A DNA stretch of 26,740 bases. Source: a bacterium. GTDB lineage: Bacteria; NPL-UPA2; JAUVJM01. The DNA is taken from NCBI GenBank assembly GCA_030606215.1, contig JAUWGW010000024.1, forward strand, positions 1 through 26,740, in the 5' to 3' direction. This document shows positions 10,397 to 19,510 of the stretch, one piece after another. Position 1 is the stretch's first letter; each line of letters starts with the position of its first letter. The translations under genes were made by a program, and so were the position numbers. The notes beneath the pieces are model-generated. The model saw nothing but the letters and a program-made list of their open reading frames with translations, made no database searches and was not told where the DNA came from.

Positions 10397-11452
10397 ATGG
10401 ATATTGATTTTTTGAAAAAGCTTGTGACAACACCAAGTCCATCGGGGTTTGAACAGCCGCTTCAGGAATTGGTGAGGGGGAAGTTTGAAGGTTTTGCGGA
10501 TGAACTGAAAACCGATGTCCATGGGAACGTCTTTGGTGTCAGGAACCCTGGAGGTAAGCCGAGAATAATGCTCGCCGCGCACAGTGATGAGATTGGATTC
10601 ATGGTAAAACATATTACAAATGAAGGATATATATATTTTGCGCTTGTTGGCGGCGTTGATGTGAATCTGGTTCCAGGGCAGAGTGTTGAAATTCATACTA
10701 AGAAAGGTGTTGTGCCGGGTGTGGTTGGGAAAAAACCTATCCATCTGATGGAAGAGGAGGATAAAAAGAAAAAGCAGGAAATTTATAATCTTTGGATTGA
10801 TATTGGTGCAGGCAAGAAAGAAAAGGTGGAGAAAATAGTGAGTATCGGTGACCCTGTTACCTTTTCAGGGAAGTTTAATATCTTGCAGAATAAACGGTTA
10901 GCGGCCAGAAGTTTTGATGATAAAGCGGGAGTTTTTGTGCTGACAGAAGTGATGAAAGGACTTAGAGGCAAGAAATTTTCTGCGGCTGTTTTCAGCGTAG
11001 CAACCGTGCAGGAAGAAATTGGTCTGCGCGGCGCAAGGACAAGCGCATATGCTATAGAGCCCGATATAGGGATTGCGATTGATGTTGAATTCAGTTCAGA
11101 TTACCCTGAAATTGATAAGAAGAGGGTTGGAGAAATTTCTCTCGGGAAAGGACCTGTGTTATACAGAGGTGCTAATATAAATCCTGTTCTTGGTGAATTC
11201 CTCATTCAGACCGCTGAGAGGAGAAAGATTCCTTATCAACTCTCAGGCTCGCCAAAAGCAACGGGAACGGATGCAAATGTCATGCAGTTAACGAGAAGTG
11301 GAGTGGCAACGGCTGTTATCGGCATACCAAACAGGTATATGCACACTCCGGTTGAGGTTATCTCTACAATTGATCTGGAAAATGCTGTGAAACTTCTTAC
11401 ATCTTTCATCCTCAAGGTTAAAAAGGATATGGATTTTATTCCAGGGAGGTGA
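10397..11452 (+). CDS. M42-family metallopeptidase (glutamyl/deblocking aminopeptidase type)
   Basis: The 351-residue protein is of normal M42 length. The dinuclear metal ligands of the family are visible: AAHSDEIGF (His), RSFDDKAG (bridging Asp), VQEEIGLRG (catalytic Glu and ligand Glu), AIDVEF (Asp) and YMHTPVE (final His). M42 enzymes form large tetrahedral cytoplasmic peptidases that trim short peptides; older names include endoglucanase M. It begins SPSGFEQPLQELV, as is usual. The stop codon lies within the ribosome binding site of lipA, so the two are tightly linked in one operon. Specificity (glutamyl, lysyl or leucyl) cannot be told from sequence. Confidence 0.93.
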   Translation: MDIDFLKKLVTTPSPSGFEQPLQELVRGKFEGFADELKTDVHGNVFGVRNPGGKPRIMLAAHSDEIGFMVKHITNEGYIYFALVGGVDVNLVPGQSVEIHTKKGVVPGVVGKKPIHLMEEEDKKKKQEIYNLWIDIGAGKKEKVEKIVSIGDPVTFSGKFNILQNKRLAARSFDDKAGVFVLTEVMKGLRGKKFSAAVFSVATVQEEIGLRGARTSAYAIEPDIGIAIDVEFSSDYPEIDKKRVGEISLGKGPVLYRGANINPVLGEFLIQTAERRKIPYQLSGSPKATGTDANVMQLTRSGVATAVIGIPNRYMHTPVEVISTIDLENAVKLLTSFILKVKKDMDFIPGR

Positions 11453-11458
11453 TTTGAA

Positions 11459-12340
11459 ATGGAGGCAACAAAACGACTCCCTGTGTGGTTTAAGCAAAGA
11501 GTTAAAAGTAATTATGAGATGGGTAGAGTTTTATCTGTCCTTGATGAACTCAAGCTTAATACTGTATGCGAGAGCGCCTGCTGTCCAAACAGAAGTTACT
11601 GCTATAGTCAGGGGACAGCTACTTTTATGATTCTTGGTGATACCTGCACGAGGGGATGTCGTTTCTGTGCTGTCAGGAAAGGCAAACCGCAGCCGGTGGA
11701 TGACGAAGAGCCTGAGCGCATCAGTCTGGCAGTGAGGAAACTTGGATTAAAATATGTTGTTATCACTTCAGTTACGCGTGATGACCTTGCTGATGGTGGA
11801 GCAGAGCAATTTGCAAAAGTTGTCAGGGAGGTGAGAAAATTAACTCCTGCTGTAGCAATTGAGCTTTTAGTTCCGGATTTTCAGGGGGGGGGAGAGCTTT
11901 TGAAGATTGTCCTGGGTGTTCATCCTGATGTCATAGGTCATAATCTTGAAACTGTTCCCAGATTATATCCCTATGTAAGGCCGGAGGCTGTGTATGAAAG
12001 GTCAATTAAGTTATTGATGCATGTTAAATTGGGAAACAGCTCAATTTTAACCAAATCCGGATTGATGCTTGGGCTTGGGGAAACAAAAAGTGAAGTGGAA
12101 GAAGTTATGTGTGGACTTCACAGTGTTAGTTGTGATATTCTCACGCTCGGGCAGTATCTTCAACCATCAGAGGAACATCTCCCTGTTGTGGAATATATAA
12201 GCCCGGAACAGTTTCAGCAGTACCGAATGATTGCTTCCAACTATGGGTTTAAAGCGGTCGCCTCAAGCCCGCTTGTGCGTAGTTCATATAATGCGGAGGA
12301 GATTTTTAATGAGCTTGCTGACTGTAAGGAAATACGGTGA
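11459..12340 (+). CDS. lipA: Lipoyl synthase
   Basis: The 293-residue radical SAM enzyme inserts two sulfur atoms into protein-bound octanoyl groups to make lipoate. The auxiliary cluster cysteines are Cys37, Cys42 and Cys48 (CESACCPNRSYC). The radical SAM cluster is CTRGCRFC (Cys63, Cys67, Cys70). The C-terminal RSSYNAEE provides the serine that ligates the auxiliary cluster. The start has GGGAGGTGA upstream. A run of nine G at 11884-11892 codes QGGGE in the strand after VPDF. No lipB or lplA lies in the window. The 3' end overlaps def by 32 bases, and the def ribosome binding site is inside lipA. Confidence 0.97.
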   Translation: MEATKRLPVWFKQRVKSNYEMGRVLSVLDELKLNTVCESACCPNRSYCYSQGTATFMILGDTCTRGCRFCAVRKGKPQPVDDEEPERISLAVRKLGLKYVVITSVTRDDLADGGAEQFAKVVREVRKLTPAVAIELLVPDFQGGGELLKIVLGVHPDVIGHNLETVPRLYPYVRPEAVYERSIKLLMHVKLGNSSILTKSGLMLGLGETKSEVEEVMCGLHSVSCDILTLGQYLQPSEEHLPVVEYISPEQFQQYRMIASNYGFKAVASSPLVRSSYNAEEIFNELADCKEIR

Positions 12341-12806
12341 CCCGATACTGAGGGAGACCTGTCAGCCTATGAATGAAATTAGTGATTCTGTCAGGAATTT
12401 GATAGATGACATGGTAAAGACGATGTATGAATATAGGGGAGTTGGTCTTTCTGCTCCTCAGGTTGGTGTGAAGAAAAGAGTAGTCGTTGTTGATGCCGGT
12501 CGGGAATTGATTGCTCTTGTTAATCCGGAAATTCTATCTAAGGAAGGCAGGGAAGTTGCGCTGGAAGGATGTTTGAGTATTCCGGATGTTCAGGTTGATG
12601 TTGAACGGGCGGCGAAAATTATTGTAGAAGGGCTTGACCGCGAGGGGAAACATGTAAAGTTGGCTCTTGATGGATTGGCTGCACGGGCGATACAGCATGA
12701 GGTTGACCATCTAAATGGTATTCTCATAATTGATTATTTGAGTTTTGTAAAACGCCAGCTTATTAAGAAGAAGCTTTCAGCTATCGGCTCTCAGCAGTCA
12801 GCTTAA
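12309..12806 (+). CDS. def: Peptide deformylase
   Basis: The 165-residue enzyme removes the formyl group from nascent protein N-termini. All three family motifs are present: GVGLSAPQVG near residue 44, EGCLS with Cys88 as metal ligand, and HEVDH (His130, Glu131, His134). The ATG at 12309 follows GGAGGAG at good spacing and gives the usual start MSLLTVRKYGDPILR; the open frame extends upstream inside lipA but that extension is not plausible. The last seven or eight residues (AIGSQQSA) are coded by a 7-base-period repeat rather than conserved sequence, so the end of the gene lies in repeat DNA. Confidence 0.97.
   Translation: MSLLTVRKYGDPILRETCQPMNEISDSVRNLIDDMVKTMYEYRGVGLSAPQVGVKKRVVVVDAGRELIALVNPEILSKEGREVALEGCLSIPDVQVDVERAAKIIVEGLDREGKHVKLALDGLAARAIQHEVDHLNGILIIDYLSFVKRQLIKKKLSAIGSQQSA
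12772..12799 (+). repeat. Four 7-base units at the 3' end of def
   Basis: AGCTTTC, AGCTATC, GGCTCTC and AGCAGTC fit the pattern RGCNNTC at a 7-base period and are followed by a partial fifth unit. The array codes the divergent C-terminal tail of peptide deformylase. Confidence 0.6.
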
Positions 12807-12820
12807 AGGGGGAGGAAACC

Positions 12821-13351
12821 ATGCTTACAGAAGTTCTGGAAGAGGATTTAGTTATAACCGAACTTAAATCGAAAAGGAAAGAAGATGTGATTAAAGAGAT
12901 GGCAGGCAGATTTGTGGAAGTGGGAGTGGTTAAAGATGAGAATAAGTTTGTAGAAGCTCTAAAGGAAAGGGAGAAAATAGAGACTACAGCTGTTGGAAGT
13001 GGTGTAGCCATACCACATGCTCGCTCGGATACAGTGGAGGGGTTAACTGTTGTTTTTGCGAAATCTGAGGAGGGAGTTGATTTTGAATCTGTGGATGGTA
13101 AACCAGTACAATTAATTTTTATGATTGCCTGTAGCCTGGATATCAACAGAGAGTATCTTCAGATACTGGCAAGAATTGCAAGACTTTGTAAGAATTATAA
13201 GATGAAGGATGGACTTATAAAAGCTAAGGATAAGAAGGAAATTATGCACCTTATAAAAGGTTTTGATGCAGGTTCCGGTAAGTTTGAAGAGATAAAACTG
13301 AAGAGAGGAAGAACAGTTTATCCGAATAAAACAACAGACCAAAGACAATAG
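12821..13351 (+). CDS. PTS EIIA domain protein (fructose/nitrogen type)
   Basis: The 176-residue protein is one EIIA domain of the fructose/mannitol/Ntr class. The phospho-accepting histidine is His66 in AVGSGVAIPHARS, and the preceding helix region has REKIETT, as in the family. No EIIB or EIIC gene is nearby, so a regulatory role like EIIA-Ntr is more likely than sugar transport. The ribosome binding site GGGGGAGGA is strong. Past the EIIA fold, the C-terminal tail ends NKTTDQRQ, coded by the start of a 7-base-period array. It lies immediately upstream of a CPA2 antiporter and a PII-like gene and is probably co-transcribed with them. Confidence 0.9.
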   Translation: MLTEVLEEDLVITELKSKRKEDVIKEMAGRFVEVGVVKDENKFVEALKEREKIETTAVGSGVAIPHARSDTVEGLTVVFAKSEEGVDFESVDGKPVQLIFMIACSLDINREYLQILARIARLCKNYKMKDGLIKAKDKKEIMHLIKGFDAGSGKFEEIKLKRGRTVYPNKTTDQRQ

Positions 13352-13367
13352 ACCATAGACTGTAGAC
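13333..13367 (+). repeat. Five 7-base units spanning the EIIA gene stop codon
   Basis: The units AACAGAC, CAAAGAC, AATAGAC, CATAGAC and TGTAGAC share AGAC at exact 7-base steps. The EIIA stop codon (13349-13351) lies within the array, and the rest fills the gap to the antiporter gene. Confidence 0.7.
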
Positions 13368-13389
13368 AAGAGAAAGTAGTGGCTGGTAT

Positions 13390-14556
13390 ATGAATATATA
13401 TTTGGCATGCGGGCTAATTTTTCTGTTCGCTTTAGTTTCCTCTAAACTGCTGAGCCGGTTAAAGTTCCCGGTGGTTACTTCTTATCTTTTACTGGGTATT
13501 TTAATCGGTCCATTTGGATTAAAATTAGTCCCTGAAAATTTGGTTAGGGCTACTGATTCCATTGGTTATTTTGTTCTGGGAATGGTTGCCTTCACTCTCG
13601 GACAAAATTTCCTATGGAGGGAATTCAAGCGGGTTGGCAAGGAGGTAATAGCTATCTCAATAGCTGCTGTGCTTGCTGTTTTAGTATTTGTTAGTGTAGG
13701 CCTTTGGGCAGTTGGACAATCATTTTCAACAGCCATTATTTTAGGAGCAGTTGCTACCGCCACAGCGCCAATGGCTACACTTATGGTTGTCAGAGAATAC
13801 CGTGCAAAAGGTCCTTTTACTAATATCCTTCTGAATGTAATAGCTATTGATGATGCCTGGGGGATGATTGTTTTTGCTGTAGCTATTGCCATTGCAAAGA
13901 TTACAAGTTTCCCAGGGATAGAAAACCATTTTGCTAAAACATTAATTGGAGTGGGGGGGGGGATATTTGGGGCTTTGGTTTTGGGGTTAACCTTAGGAGT
14001 TCTACTCTCTATAGCATCCCGATATTCAAAAACTCAAATGGAGACATTTATCTTTGCACTGGGTTTCATTTTAACTACTACAGGAATAAGTTTAAAACTT
14101 GGTTTCTCACCCCTTTTAGCCAATATGGCTTTAGGAGTAACAGTGATAAACATAACCAGAAGGCATCTTTTCTTCGATGTTTTAAAAAGAATAGATTGGC
14201 CGTTTTATCTTCTTTTCTTCGTCCTGTGCGGCACTTCACTCCAGATACCTTTTTTAAAAAATTTAGCCCTGGTAGGTGTTATTTACATAGTAGCCAGGAT
14301 ACTCGGTAAATACGCAGGCGCTTATCTGGGAGGGAAAATCACACACGCACAGGAGAATGTAAGAAGATATTTAGGTTTTGGGCTCATACCTCAGGCTGGA
14401 GTAGCTCTGGGATTAGCTATCATGGCTAAGGCTGAATTTCCGTCTTTTGGCAATTTAATCTTTACTACTATTATAGCCACGACCGTAGTCTTTGAGATAA
14501 TTGGACCATTCTGCACTAAATTTGCTATCGCTAAAGCAGGAGAGATAAGGAAATGA
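13390..14556 (+). CDS. CPA2-type cation:proton antiporter, membrane domain only
   Basis: The 388-residue protein is almost entirely hydrophobic, with about ten to twelve membrane segments. It has the Na+/H+ exchanger (CPA2/KefB) signatures KFPVVTSYLLLGILIGPFG near the N-terminus, the ATATAPMATLMVVRE region, and NVIAIDDAWGMIVF with the paired Asp expected at the ion site. It exchanges a cation (Na+ or K+) for protons across the inner membrane. There is no TrkA/RCK or universal stress domain at the C-terminus, so regulation must come from another protein. A run of ten G at 13953-13962 codes GVGGGIFG. The ribosome binding site is weak. It overlaps the frame of the PII-like gene's upstream region and is probably translated in one operon with it. 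Confidence 0.9.
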   Translation: MNIYLACGLIFLFALVSSKLLSRLKFPVVTSYLLLGILIGPFGLKLVPENLVRATDSIGYFVLGMVAFTLGQNFLWREFKRVGKEVIAISIAAVLAVLVFVSVGLWAVGQSFSTAIILGAVATATAPMATLMVVREYRAKGPFTNILLNVIAIDDAWGMIVFAVAIAIAKITSFPGIENHFAKTLIGVGGGIFGALVLGLTLGVLLSIASRYSKTQMETFIFALGFILTTTGISLKLGFSPLLANMALGVTVINITRRHLFFDVLKRIDWPFYLLFFVLCGTSLQIPFLKNLALVGVIYIVARILGKYAGAYLGGKITHAQENVRRYLGFGLIPQAGVALGLAIMAKAEFPSFGNLIFTTIIATTVVFEIIGPFCTKFAIAKAGEIRK

Positions 14557-14570
14557 AAAAGGAGGGCAGG

Positions 14571-14912
14571 ATGAGACTTCTCATGATTATCCTCAACAAG
14601 GAAGAGTTCCTGGATGATATTCTATCAAGTCTGGTGGAGTTTGGAATAATGGGGGCAACAGTGATAGAGTCTACCAGGATGAGCGAGATTCTTATCCGCG
14701 AGATACCAATATTTGCCGGATTAAGGGAAATGAGGAGAAGTAGTAGAGCGTATAATCGTGTGATAATCGCCCCTGTTGAAGAAAGGGAAACAGTAAGCGA
14801 ACTTCTGAAATTGCTCAAAGAGATAAATATTGATTTCAGCGATTCTGAGACAGGGTTTCTCTTTACTATTCCTGTTGAGGATTTCAGCGGCAAACTTGAC
14901 GATTATTTCTAA
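14571..14912 (+). CDS. Small PII-like protein
   Basis: The 113-residue protein starts MRLLMIILNKEEFLDDILSS and continues LVEFGIMGATVIESTRM. It has the beta-alpha-beta pattern of PII/GlnB-fold regulators: a first strand, a helix, GxxGATVIES as the second strand, a loop with IPIFAGLREM where PII proteins have the T-loop, and VIIAPVEERETV as the third strand. The uridylylated Tyr region of GlnB is not recognisable, so it belongs to the broader PII-like group that binds nucleotides and often regulates a neighbouring transporter. The ATG at 14571 has a near-perfect GGAGGG site; an ATG at 14553 overlapping the antiporter stop is less likely. The identification is from pattern, not a strong motif. 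Confidence 0.65.
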   Translation: MRLLMIILNKEEFLDDILSSLVEFGIMGATVIESTRMSEILIREIPIFAGLREMRRSSRAYNRVIIAPVEERETVSELLKLLKEINIDFSDSETGFLFTIPVEDFSGKLDDYF

Positions 14913-14952
14913 CCGGAATGGAATCAGTAGTCGGGCGCAACTTTCTAAAGGA

Positions 14953-14981
14953 TTGACGGAAAGAAGCAGCTGTGTTATAAG
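14953..14981 (+). promoter_or_regulatory. Strong promoter for ferredoxin-amidase-tRNA-His
   Basis: TTGACG (14953-14958), a 17-base spacer and TATAAG (14976-14981) match consensus at ten of twelve positions. The predicted start is near 14988, about 60 bases before the ferredoxin gene. Confidence 0.7.
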
Positions 14982-15010
14982 ATTTCTGGTAAATATGAAA
15001 GATAGATGAT

Positions 15011-15028
15011 GTGGGAGACCTTTCCCAC
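15011..15028 (+). promoter_or_regulatory. Hairpin in the ferredoxin leader
   Basis: GTGGGA and TCCCAC form a six-base stem around GACCTT, starting about 23 bases after the predicted start of transcription and ending just before the ribosome binding site (AGGGAGGG at 15035-15042). It has no T-run, so it is not a terminator; it may stabilise the mRNA or affect translation. Confidence 0.4.
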
Positions 15029-15048
15029 AAGTGTAGGGAGGGATGAGA

Positions 15049-15222
15049 ATGGCGGCGGTAGTTGACGAAGCAAAATGCACTGGATGTGAAATCTGTGTAG
15101 ATGCCTGTCCTGTGGAGGCTATTACTGTTGACGACATAGCTAAGATAGACCCTGAGGTATGTACTGACTGCGGTAGATGTATTGAGGAATGTCCGAATGA
15201 TGCTATAAGTAGCGGGGAATAA
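15049..15222 (+). CDS. 2x[4Fe-4S] ferredoxin
   Basis: The 57-residue protein has two complete cluster motifs: CTGCEICVDACP and CTDCGRCIEECP. This is the classic clostridial-type ferredoxin that carries low-potential electrons in anaerobes. The first residues are MAAVVDEAKC. The ATG at 15049 is six bases after AGGGAGGG; an ATG at 15043 is in frame but too close to that site. The stop TAA overlaps the ATG of the amidase gene by one base. Partner enzymes are not in the window. Confidence 0.95.
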   Translation: MAAVVDEAKCTGCEICVDACPVEAITVDDIAKIDPEVCTDCGRCIEECPNDAISSGE

Positions 15223-15983
15223 TGAGCAGGAAAGTTAGAAGGTTCAATTTTGTAGTTGCGGCCGTTTCGCTGGCCGCTGTTGTATTGATATACTCCGGTG
15301 GGTTTGCCACTGTTAATGGAGTTTATCACAGAGTGAGAAAGGGAGAAACGGTCTGGCGAATCAGTCGTGGATACTGTGTTCCCATTGAGCAGGTAAGAAA
15401 AGCAAACAATCTCCCATCTTCTATGAAGATTAGAGCTGGGCAGTATCTATTCATACCCGGTGCGGAGAAAGTTGTCAAGATTGAGCCCGAGGATTACCAG
15501 ATAAGGTACATCCTGCGGTGCGGAACTTCAAACCGGTGGAAGTATGTCGTTATCCATCATAGTGCAACCGATAAAGGGAGTGCGCGCGTATTTGATAGAA
15601 ATCACCGCAGGCAGCGTCATTTTCGCCATGGTCTCGGATACCAATTTGTAATATGTAACGGTAGTTACGGGAGAAAAGATGGGCAGATTGAAGTTGGATG
15701 GCGTTGGAGAGAACAATTAGACGGGGCGCACTGTAGAGCAGGTAATGGCAACAGAATTGGAATTGGAATATGTCTCGTTGGTAATTTTAATGAAACAAGA
15801 CCGAGTCGGAAACAGTTCAATTCGCTCATCCATCTTGTAACGCATCTGTGTTATATGTATAATATTCCTGTTGAGAATGTTAGAGGACATGGTGAAATGC
15901 CAGGTGCGAATACTGAGTGCCCTGGCAAGAATTTCCCCTGGAGTGAGTTTAGAAAAGCGCTCTATGAGCGAGTTTGTAAATAA
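15222..15983 (+). CDS. LysM-containing N-acetylmuramoyl-L-alanine amidase (Amidase_2)
   Basis: The 253-residue protein has a basic N-terminus and one hydrophobic segment (about residues 9-29, FVVAAVSLAAVVLIYSGGF), so it is anchored in or exported across the membrane. A LysM domain follows at about 35-78 (YHRVRKGETVWRISRGYCV to GQYLFIPG), which binds peptidoglycan glycan. The C-terminal Amidase_2/PGRP-type domain has zinc ligands VIHHSAT, GAHCRAGN and the TECPG cysteine. It should cleave the bond between MurNAc and L-Ala in peptidoglycan. The gene is translationally coupled to the ferredoxin gene and is followed after 19 bases by tRNA-His. Confidence 0.92.
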   Translation: MSRKVRRFNFVVAAVSLAAVVLIYSGGFATVNGVYHRVRKGETVWRISRGYCVPIEQVRKANNLPSSMKIRAGQYLFIPGAEKVVKIEPEDYQIRYILRCGTSNRWKYVVIHHSATDKGSARVFDRNHRRQRHFRHGLGYQFVICNGSYGRKDGQIEVGWRWREQLDGAHCRAGNGNRIGIGICLVGNFNETRPSRKQFNSLIHLVTHLCYMYNIPVENVRGHGEMPGANTECPGKNFPWSEFRKALYERVCK

Positions 15984-17432: not shown

Positions 17433-18512
17433 TTGTTCGGTGAAGCTGTGTTATCTAAGAAAAGATTTGAATTAGTTGTAGCGCATAAAGAGGTGGATAG
17501 GCCTATAGTTGATTTTCAGGCGGCAAGGGAGATTATAGAAGGGCTGAAAACTCACTTCCAGGTAGAAACAGAGGACGAACTCTTAGATTGTCTACAGGTT
17601 GATGTCCGTAGTGTTGCCCCGGATTATATAGGTCCTCCTTTGAAAACATTTCCTGATGGAAGCAAGGAGAGTATTTTTGGAGTGAGAACAAAGGAGATTA
17701 AAAACCCCTCTGGAGTAAGTAATGTGGAAGTTTATAATCCTTTATCTGAAATTGGTACGATTGACGATTTCCGGGAAAGATATTCTTTTCCTTCTTATGA
17801 GTATTTTGATTTTGAAGGAGTGAAAGAGAAAGTGCGCAGATACAATAAGTATGCTTTGAACACCGGGTGGATGAGTATTTGGTATCTTTATTTTTTTCTG
17901 AGGGGGATGGAGAAAGCTATGATGGATATGCTTATAGAAAAGGAATTCTTCCGTTATGTCATGAATGAATGTGCTAATTTTTATAAAGGTTATATGAAAA
18001 GAGTTCTGGAGGAAGCTAATGGAGCTATTGATTATGTAATGACTTATGAGGATTTTGGGTCAACAGAAGGGCTCTTAATCTCTTTAGATGATATCAGAAA
18101 TGAAGTGCTTATTTATTACGAAGATTTTGCACAAATTTTTTCTAATTATGGGGCAAGATTTGCTTTTCATTCTTGTGGAAGTGTACATGAGGTAATACCT
18201 GACCTTCTAAATTTAGGAGTTTCTATTCTGGATCCGGTTCAAGTTTCAGCCAAGGGGATGGATATTGAGTTATTGAAAGAAAAATATGGAGATAGGCTAA
18301 CCTTCAGAGGAGCAATTGATACAACGGAACTTTTGCCTCGTGGGACAGAAGAGGAAGTGAAAGAAAAAGTGAAGCATACAGTTGATGTGTTAGGAAAAGA
18401 TGGAGGTTATATTTTTTGCTCCTCAAACGATATTAATGCAGATGTTGCTTTAGAAAATGTTTTGGCTATGTATGAAGTTGCATTAGGAGATAAATTCTGG
18501 GAAGGGAAATGA
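17433..18512 (+). CDS. URO-D-fold family protein with MtaA-like zinc motif
   Basis: The protein of about 359 residues has the URO-D/MtaA-type opening SKKRFELVVAHKEVDRPIVDF. It keeps the zinc ligands of MtaA: His246-x-Cys248 (FHSCGSVHEVIPDLL) and a distal Cys329 (GGYIFCSSN). MtaA-type enzymes move methyl groups between a corrinoid protein and a thiol such as coenzyme M; here neither a corrinoid protein nor a partner methyltransferase is nearby, so substrate and acceptor are unknown. I chose TTG at 17433 because AGGA lies five bases upstream; GTG at 17448 is the alternative. It overlaps the next URO-D gene by four bases. Confidence 0.85.
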   Translation: MFGEAVLSKKRFELVVAHKEVDRPIVDFQAAREIIEGLKTHFQVETEDELLDCLQVDVRSVAPDYIGPPLKTFPDGSKESIFGVRTKEIKNPSGVSNVEVYNPLSEIGTIDDFRERYSFPSYEYFDFEGVKEKVRRYNKYALNTGWMSIWYLYFFLRGMEKAMMDMLIEKEFFRYVMNECANFYKGYMKRVLEEANGAIDYVMTYEDFGSTEGLLISLDDIRNEVLIYYEDFAQIFSNYGARFAFHSCGSVHEVIPDLLNLGVSILDPVQVSAKGMDIELLKEKYGDRLTFRGAIDTTELLPRGTEEEVKEKVKHTVDVLGKDGGYIFCSSNDINADVALENVLAMYEVALGDKFWEGK

Positions 18513-19510
18513 GTCAAAAAGAAAGGTTACTCACTGCTCTTCAAGGCGGAATTCCTGACAGAGTGCCGAATTTTGAAGTGTGGTGGGGAGGGCACGGAGA
18601 GATAGAGGAATATTTCCTGGGTCATCCAGTTGGAAATGAGGAAGATGTAGTTAAGTTTGCTAAGAAAATTGGCTGGGGTTCGGTGAATGGAGGATATTTT
18701 GGACTGGGCGGAGGAGTTTCTCAGGAAGCTTCTGATGGTGAAACACATTATGCTGGTGGTTCCTGGAGAACCTGGGAAGATTATGAAAAGCTGGAATTCC
18801 CCTTTGATTCTTTAGAAGAGAAATTAATCTACCTTAAGAAGATTTCTAAAATTGCCCGGGATGAAGGTTTGGCAACTCATATCTACATTCTTTCCTCTTT
18901 TCACGCAGTGGCTACTGGAATGGGGCTGGAGCACTTTTCCCTTACCTGCTATGACGACTTGAAGTTAGTTGAGGCGGTTATGGATAAGGTTGAGGAGTAC
19001 AATCGTTTGGTTCTGGAAAAAGTCTTGAATGAAACAAAAATAGACTTTATAGTTCTTGATAATGATTGCGCTTTTAAAAATGGTTTAATGGTTTCCCCGC
19101 AACTTTTTGAAAAGTTATGGTTTCAGCGCACTAAAGAGACTATTCAGATTTTGAAAGATAAAGGAGTAGTCTGCACAATGCATACTGATGGTAAAGTAGA
19201 TGAAGTTATTCCTCTTGTTATTAAACTTGGTTTTTCGGCTATTCACGGGATTGAGGCGGCGGCTAACGATTTAGGTGAGATAAAGGAGAAGTTTGGAAAA
19301 GAGATTTCTCTGTTAGGCAATATGGATATAGTTGATTTGACTAAGAAAAGTCCTGCTGAAATTGAAGAAGAAACTAAGGAAATGCTTGTGCAGGGCAAAC
19401 AGGACGGTGGCTATATAGCTGGTTGTAATACTCTTGTAGCGAAATATATACCTGTACAGAATTACTTGGCAATGGTTAAGACTATAGATAAATTTGGCTG
19501 GTACAAATAA
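18509..19510 (+). CDS. URO-D-fold family protein, second tandem paralogue
   Basis: The 333-residue protein begins MSQKERLLTALQGGIPDRVPNFEVWW, a typical start for the family. Where the neighbour has His-x-Cys it has His-x-Asp (CTMHTDGKVDEVIPLVI), while a C-terminal Cys is kept (GGYIAGCNTLV). It is therefore a divergent paralogue rather than a copy, and may bind metal differently. The ATG overlaps the upstream stop (ATGA) with GAAGGGA as ribosome binding site, so the pair is co-translated. A truncated third member follows two bases downstream. Confidence 0.85.
   Translation: MSQKERLLTALQGGIPDRVPNFEVWWGGHGEIEEYFLGHPVGNEEDVVKFAKKIGWGSVNGGYFGLGGGVSQEASDGETHYAGGSWRTWEDYEKLEFPFDSLEEKLIYLKKISKIARDEGLATHIYILSSFHAVATGMGLEHFSLTCYDDLKLVEAVMDKVEEYNRLVLEKVLNETKIDFIVLDNDCAFKNGLMVSPQLFEKLWFQRTKETIQILKDKGVVCTMHTDGKVDEVIPLVIKLGFSAIHGIEAAANDLGEIKEKFGKEISLLGNMDIVDLTKKSPAEIEEETKEMLVQGKQDGGYIAGCNTLVAKYIPVQNYLAMVKTIDKFGWYK

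Follow-up and report, generated by a model that had tools for sequence, protein, structure and literature searches.

When a phosphotransferase EIIA protein, a cation/proton antiporter and a small PII-like protein are encoded side by side, the question arises whether the two small proteins control the transporter. Such a set lies at positions 12821-14912 on the plus strand of the window, by which we mean the whole 26,740-nucleotide stretch of DNA from an uncultured bacterium that was analysed, and the sequence reads as one tight run of three genes. The first gene (12821..13351, plus strand) encodes a 176-aa EIIA of the PTS_EIIA_2 (EIIA-Fru/Ntr) type. It is followed after 38 nt by the gene for a 388-aa antiporter of the CPA superfamily with a transmembrane domain only (13390..14556, plus strand) and, after another 14 nt, by the gene for the PII-like protein (113 aa; 14571..14912, plus strand). 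For this last gene, the ATG at 14571 is likelier to be the start than the ATG at 14553; an AGGAGG ribosome site is found 5 nt upstream, and the resulting protein has the same first residues as its relatives. Upstream of the EIIA gene, across a gap of 14 nt, are def and lipA. These belong to a housekeeping run (alaS...lipA-def), and in this bacterial family the three-gene set sits directly behind def. In a promoter scan of 11400-15300, sites were no more numerous than in shuffled sequence. Coordinates, strand and Pfam matches bear out the preliminary description of this DNA, which had placed an EIIA, an antiporter without a regulatory domain and a PII-like protein in one run. Elsewhere in the window (17433-19510), two adjoining URO-D-type proteins, one recognized by Pfam and the second by its look, are encoded behind an iron alcohol dehydrogenase; these are possibly corrinoid methyltransfer genes.

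The small protein taken singly has a weak match to Pfam P-II (PF00543; E 0.02-0.025, below the curated cut-off), and a phmmer search of the PDB with its sequence alone returned noise only, so that a family profile was needed. This profile of 73 rows was made from relatives gathered by sequence alone, with their neighbours ignored. Among these family members, 45 of 73 match PF00543 at E<=0.1 (best 7e-11), and when the profile was run against all PDB sequences PII proteins came first, with 2gw8, 2eg1 and 1pil at E 2.8e-5 to 2e-4. AlphaFold2 with the family alignment gave a model with a pLDDT of 88.7 and the element order E-H-E-(T-loop region)-E-H-E, that is, a predicted ferredoxin-like fold (beta-alpha-beta-beta-alpha-beta) whose strands 2 and 3 are joined by a long loop. 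The top rows of Foldseek and VIA-align searches with this model were of the PII superfamily (GlnK, PotN, SbtB, CPII, PstA and CutA; Z up to 10.7). Judged by predicted fold and family profile, the small protein belongs to the PII superfamily, and the fold on which the preliminary description had staked its reading is thus the one that the model shows.

The genome holds a separate canonical PII on another contig, and the window protein is a second, divergent one. In canonical PII proteins (GlnB/GlnK), Lys90 and Arg101 are ligands of the ATP phosphates. In the alignment to E. coli GlnB, whose numbering is used here, the family has Ile, Leu or Met in the Lys90 column and mostly Gly in the Arg101 column. 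The T-loop Tyr51 is absent from the family, and its region is taken by a PIFAGL motif (14706..14723, plus strand, in the T-loop-equivalent region), which is the most conserved part of the family (P in 68/73, F in 67/73 and A in 56/73 members). The window protein has none of the canonical residues Lys90, Arg101 and Tyr51. Since the Lys90 and Arg101 equivalents and the T-loop Tyr are missing, the alignment makes ATP/2-oxoglutarate sensing of the usual kind unlikely, and the 'nucleotide state' that had been proposed as an input to the transporter is not supported as stated. The protein may instead bind another ligand, by analogy with SbtB or PstA, or a protein partner.

The antiporter matches PF00999 (Na_H_Exchanger) with an E of 3e-38 over residues 12-376 of 388, and no other domain was found. 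It carries no C-terminal RCK or CorC domain, and the chain ends 3 residues past the transmembrane domain match. It had been labelled CPA2, which is firmer than the matches allow: TIGR00932 (CPA2) is the best family model at 47 bits, far under its cut-off of 238; PRK05326 (potassium/proton antiporter), which we take to be the YcgO/CvrA model, and TIGR00831 (CPA1 type) are close behind; and among solved structures NhaP-type antiporters are the nearest. From what is known of NapA/NhaA-type antiporters, Asp154-Asp155 of the DD motif (AIDDAWGM; 13849..13854, plus strand) are the ion-binding pair of this superfamily, and DD is present in 43/59 antiporters of related loci. No second PF00999 gene was found in this genome, which is ~93% complete. 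Twelve named relatives of the antiporter (35-40% identity) have neither an EIIA nor a PII-like gene nearby, which indicates that such antiporters can do without these regulators in some cases; the contig search with the antiporter matched mostly alphaproteobacterial antiporters, without the regulators.

The EIIA protein matches PF00359 (PTS_EIIA_2; E 5e-37) and scores over the cut-off of TIGR00848 (122 bits, cut-off 103.5). Against the PtsN equivalog model TIGR01419 it reaches 71.8 bits, below the cut-off of 138.7, and it does not class as a PtsN equivalog; PtsN proteins are its nearest solved structures. His66 in GVAIPHAR (codon at 13016..13018, plus strand), the phosphorylatable histidine of this EIIA class, is intact, and the same site with its IPH is kept in nearly all EIIAs of the module. 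The C-terminal tail (residues ~147-176) is common to the nearest of these, with K-x-G-R-(T/V)-(V/I)-(Y/H) found in the window protein (as K-R-G-R-T-V-Y), L031, L081 and L082. Phosphoryl donors are present in the genome: HPr (2e-32) is encoded at G000:C13:72815-73054 with EI adjoining, behind genes reading as kdsC-lptC-lptB-hpf. The sole other EIIA found in the genome forms the C-terminal part of a 617-aa protein reading as an amino-acid permease (L140 1468-3321, G000:C13, minus strand). EIIC (PF02378) and EIIB (PF02302) were found in 0/49 genomes having the PII-like protein and EIIA, which leaves the window EIIA without a sugar permease from these families to supply. We rejected EIIC absence as a mark of module genomes: 4/49 module-free controls have EIIC versus 0 in module genomes, so EIIC is rare in controls too and its absence is mostly background, not an association.

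A search of 386 genomes drawn from across bacteria with the neighbour-blind profile found the PII-like family in 66. We surveyed 74 loci in 47 families, counting as a neighbour any gene on the same strand within 3 kb. An EIIA and/or a CPA antiporter was nearby in 58/74 loci (37 families), and both were present in 35/74. An EIIA was a neighbour in 47/74 loci, with or without an antiporter, versus 0.38 expected by chance, and in 12 loci EIIA and PII are fused into one protein. A model of the fusion from one locus predicts two folded domains on a flexible linker with no fixed domain contact (pTM 0.57). Neither partner was nearby in 16/74 loci (11 families), including the same-phylum genomes G003, G005 and G006. 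The gene order can be EIIA-antiporter-PII, as in the window, antiporter-EIIA-PII, or EIIA-PII-antiporter-antiporter. Co-occurrence of the three genes, which the preliminary description had made a test of its proposal, is therefore conserved across relatives in membership and variable in order. In the sister genus the genes are arranged as in the window, with lipA-def-EIIA at one contig end (L131) and antiporter-PII at another (L027), the contig break falling between EIIA and antiporter; the genes downstream of PII differ from those in the window. The same order of genes followed by different downstream genes marks the set as the conserved unit.

The trees show a similar picture. The window PII falls in a 28-row clade (support 99/97) from ~18 families, all 28 of which lie beside a CPA antiporter, and neighbour type is strongly clustered on the PII tree as a whole (13 changes vs 36.8 in shuffles), to which near relatives contribute. 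The window EIIA groups with L131, L031, L081 and L082 (98/96), which are the same loci as in the PII tree. An alignment that combined fusions with single-domain sequences broke the PII rows apart and was left out.

Beyond the one locus with which the preliminary description was concerned, the pattern extends to the EIIA-PII fusions and to the pair beside Mrp and ClC transporters, which adjoin other PII clades; a P-type ATPase and MlaE are further neighbours of the family. In L070, L072, L074 and L032 an Mrp/Mnh antiporter operon follows immediately after the PII-like gene, and three of these four loci also have EIIA; in L076, L085 and L089 a ClC-type transporter that carries CBS domains lies close to an EIIA-PII pair. 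A 557-aa chain in L129 (4635-6305, plus strand) joins a HAD-like domain, EIIA and PII, and in L038 (5974-10135, minus strand) a PII-like gene is flanked on one side by a P-type cation ATPase and on the other by an amino-acid permease. In six loci (L090, L098, L101, L102, L103 and L106) two antiporter genes of CPA type stand in tandem behind EIIA-PII; one lacks the DD motif and the other has KD or similar, an arrangement that resembles a heterodimer in which one subunit has degenerated. L084 (8603-10243) has a second, divergent PII-like and antiporter pair on the opposite strand, adjoining an EIIA-antiporter-PII set. In L028, L029 and L030, from the window's phylum, the PII-like gene is directly behind a putative cofactor-independent phosphoglycerate mutase, with purine genes and no antiporter; this is a different use of the family within that phylum.

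Several known systems resemble the set in part. Control of bacterial antiporters is known case by case, for instance that of KefC by glutathione. GlnK, whose T-loop is the docking element, is a PII protein encoded beside its transporter, AmtB, as the window protein is beside the antiporter; unlike GlnK, the window protein lacks the canonical ATP-phosphate residues and the uridylylated Tyr51. PotN and CPII match its predicted fold with a Z of about 10 and about 20-24% identity over the fold alignment, and we know of no EIIA partner or antiporter for either. On the EIIA side, genetics and co-purification have shown that unphosphorylated PtsN (EIIA-Ntr) of E. coli binds and inhibits the K+/H+ antiporter YcgO/CvrA, which carries RCK and CorC domains, the C-terminal CorC domain being the PtsN site (PMC11808508). 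The window shares with this system a PTS_EIIA_2 protein with a phospho-His, here encoded beside a cation/proton antiporter; it differs in that the antiporter has neither RCK nor CorC, the genes are adjacent and a PII-like protein is added. SbtB, in turn, controls the bicarbonate transporter SbtA (PMC10710835, PMC10117731), and a C-terminal redox R-loop, CGPxGC, is widespread in SbtB (PMC10117731). Here too a small protein of the PII superfamily is encoded beside a transporter, and SbtB chains (Z about 10) are among the closest folds to the window protein; the transporter family is another one, EIIA is an additional partner, and the window protein lacks CGPxGC and indeed any Cys.

Our preferred reading, to which we assign a probability of roughly 60%, is that the antiporter is gated by EIIA and the PII-like protein acting together. 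The antiporter, being a transmembrane domain only, would be regulated in trans, by these two small proteins of the cytosol instead of a built-in regulatory domain. EIIA would be phosphorylated on His66 by the EI and HPr encoded elsewhere and so report the PEP/phosphotransfer state, while the PII-like protein, a trimer by analogy, would provide a second signal by binding a small ligand or EIIA itself. The PIFAGL loop may dock on the antiporter or on EIIA, and in one of its states the EIIA/PII pair would keep the antiporter closed, in the manner of unphosphorylated PtsN acting on YcgO and of SbtB acting on SbtA. In this scheme we infer the phosphorylation, the physical contact, the direction of control, the ligand and the transported ion. 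Support comes from the genes themselves, the predicted PII fold, the intact EIIA site, HPr and EI, conserved co-location, fusions and matching trees. Against it stand the indirect nature of all the co-location evidence, the 16 partnerless PII-like loci, the 12 regulator-free relatives of the antiporter, the missing CorC site, the fusion model without a fixed contact and the rarity of EIIC in the control genomes too. The regulated transport module put forward in the preliminary description is supported in part, in its co-occurrence, its PII fold and its phosphotransfer arm, the last strengthened by the active-site His, HPr with EI, and the PtsN-YcgO precedent; its nucleotide state and firm CPA2 label are not supported as stated.

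The alternative that survives best, although we consider it unlikely, is that EIIA and the PII-like protein make up a signalling cassette of general use, with two inputs and several targets, for which the antiporter would be one client and maybe not the main one. Pairs or fusions of EIIA and PII without a CPA antiporter, beside Mrp (L070, L072, L074) or ClC (L076, L085, L089), fit this idea, as does the HAD-EIIA-PII protein of L129; yet the unbroken association with CPA antiporters in the window's own PII clade makes the client look fixed here. Less probable still, and in our view rather doubtful, is that control of the antiporter falls to just one of the small proteins, which could be EIIA on the PtsN-YcgO precedent, and that its companion acts on some other target or is a sensor of the ion being moved. 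In L037, L112, L114, L117 and L128 a PII-like gene accompanies an antiporter with no EIIA in the stretch examined, and elsewhere EIIA and PII occur with no antiporter, but the 12 fusions link the two proteins to each other, as does the agreement between the EIIA tree and the PII tree. That three functionally unrelated genes were swept by chance into the housekeeping operon would suit their place behind def, and is nonetheless highly improbable given the 37 families in which the PII-like gene has EIIA and/or antiporter as neighbours, in numerous arrangements and genomic settings, the excess of EIIA neighbours over expectation, and trees that exclude near-clonality of the families.

PII-like proteins that control transporters and EIIA proteins that control antiporters are already known kinds. 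We found no description of the EIIA/PII/antiporter set or of the EIIA-PII fusion in the open-access literature searched, and one may exist elsewhere. Recurrence of the conserved set in dozens of families, sometimes in fused form, suggests a widespread and apparently undescribed switching of ion transport with metabolism. At about even odds, EIIA and the PII-like protein, whether as two chains or as one, would be a portable regulator that reads both the phosphotransfer state and a further signal. Across families it would have been joined to three or more unrelated kinds of ion transporter, among them CPA antiporters, Mrp complexes and ClC transporters, and would couple ion and proton homeostasis to energy metabolism. 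If true, this would give a general answer to the use of EI, HPr and EIIA in bacteria without sugar PTS permeases, and the PII superfamily would gain a branch that meets the PTS directly, in the fusion proteins. It would also provide a testable claim on the means by which pH and Na+/K+ are set by metabolism in many families of bacteria that have been little studied.
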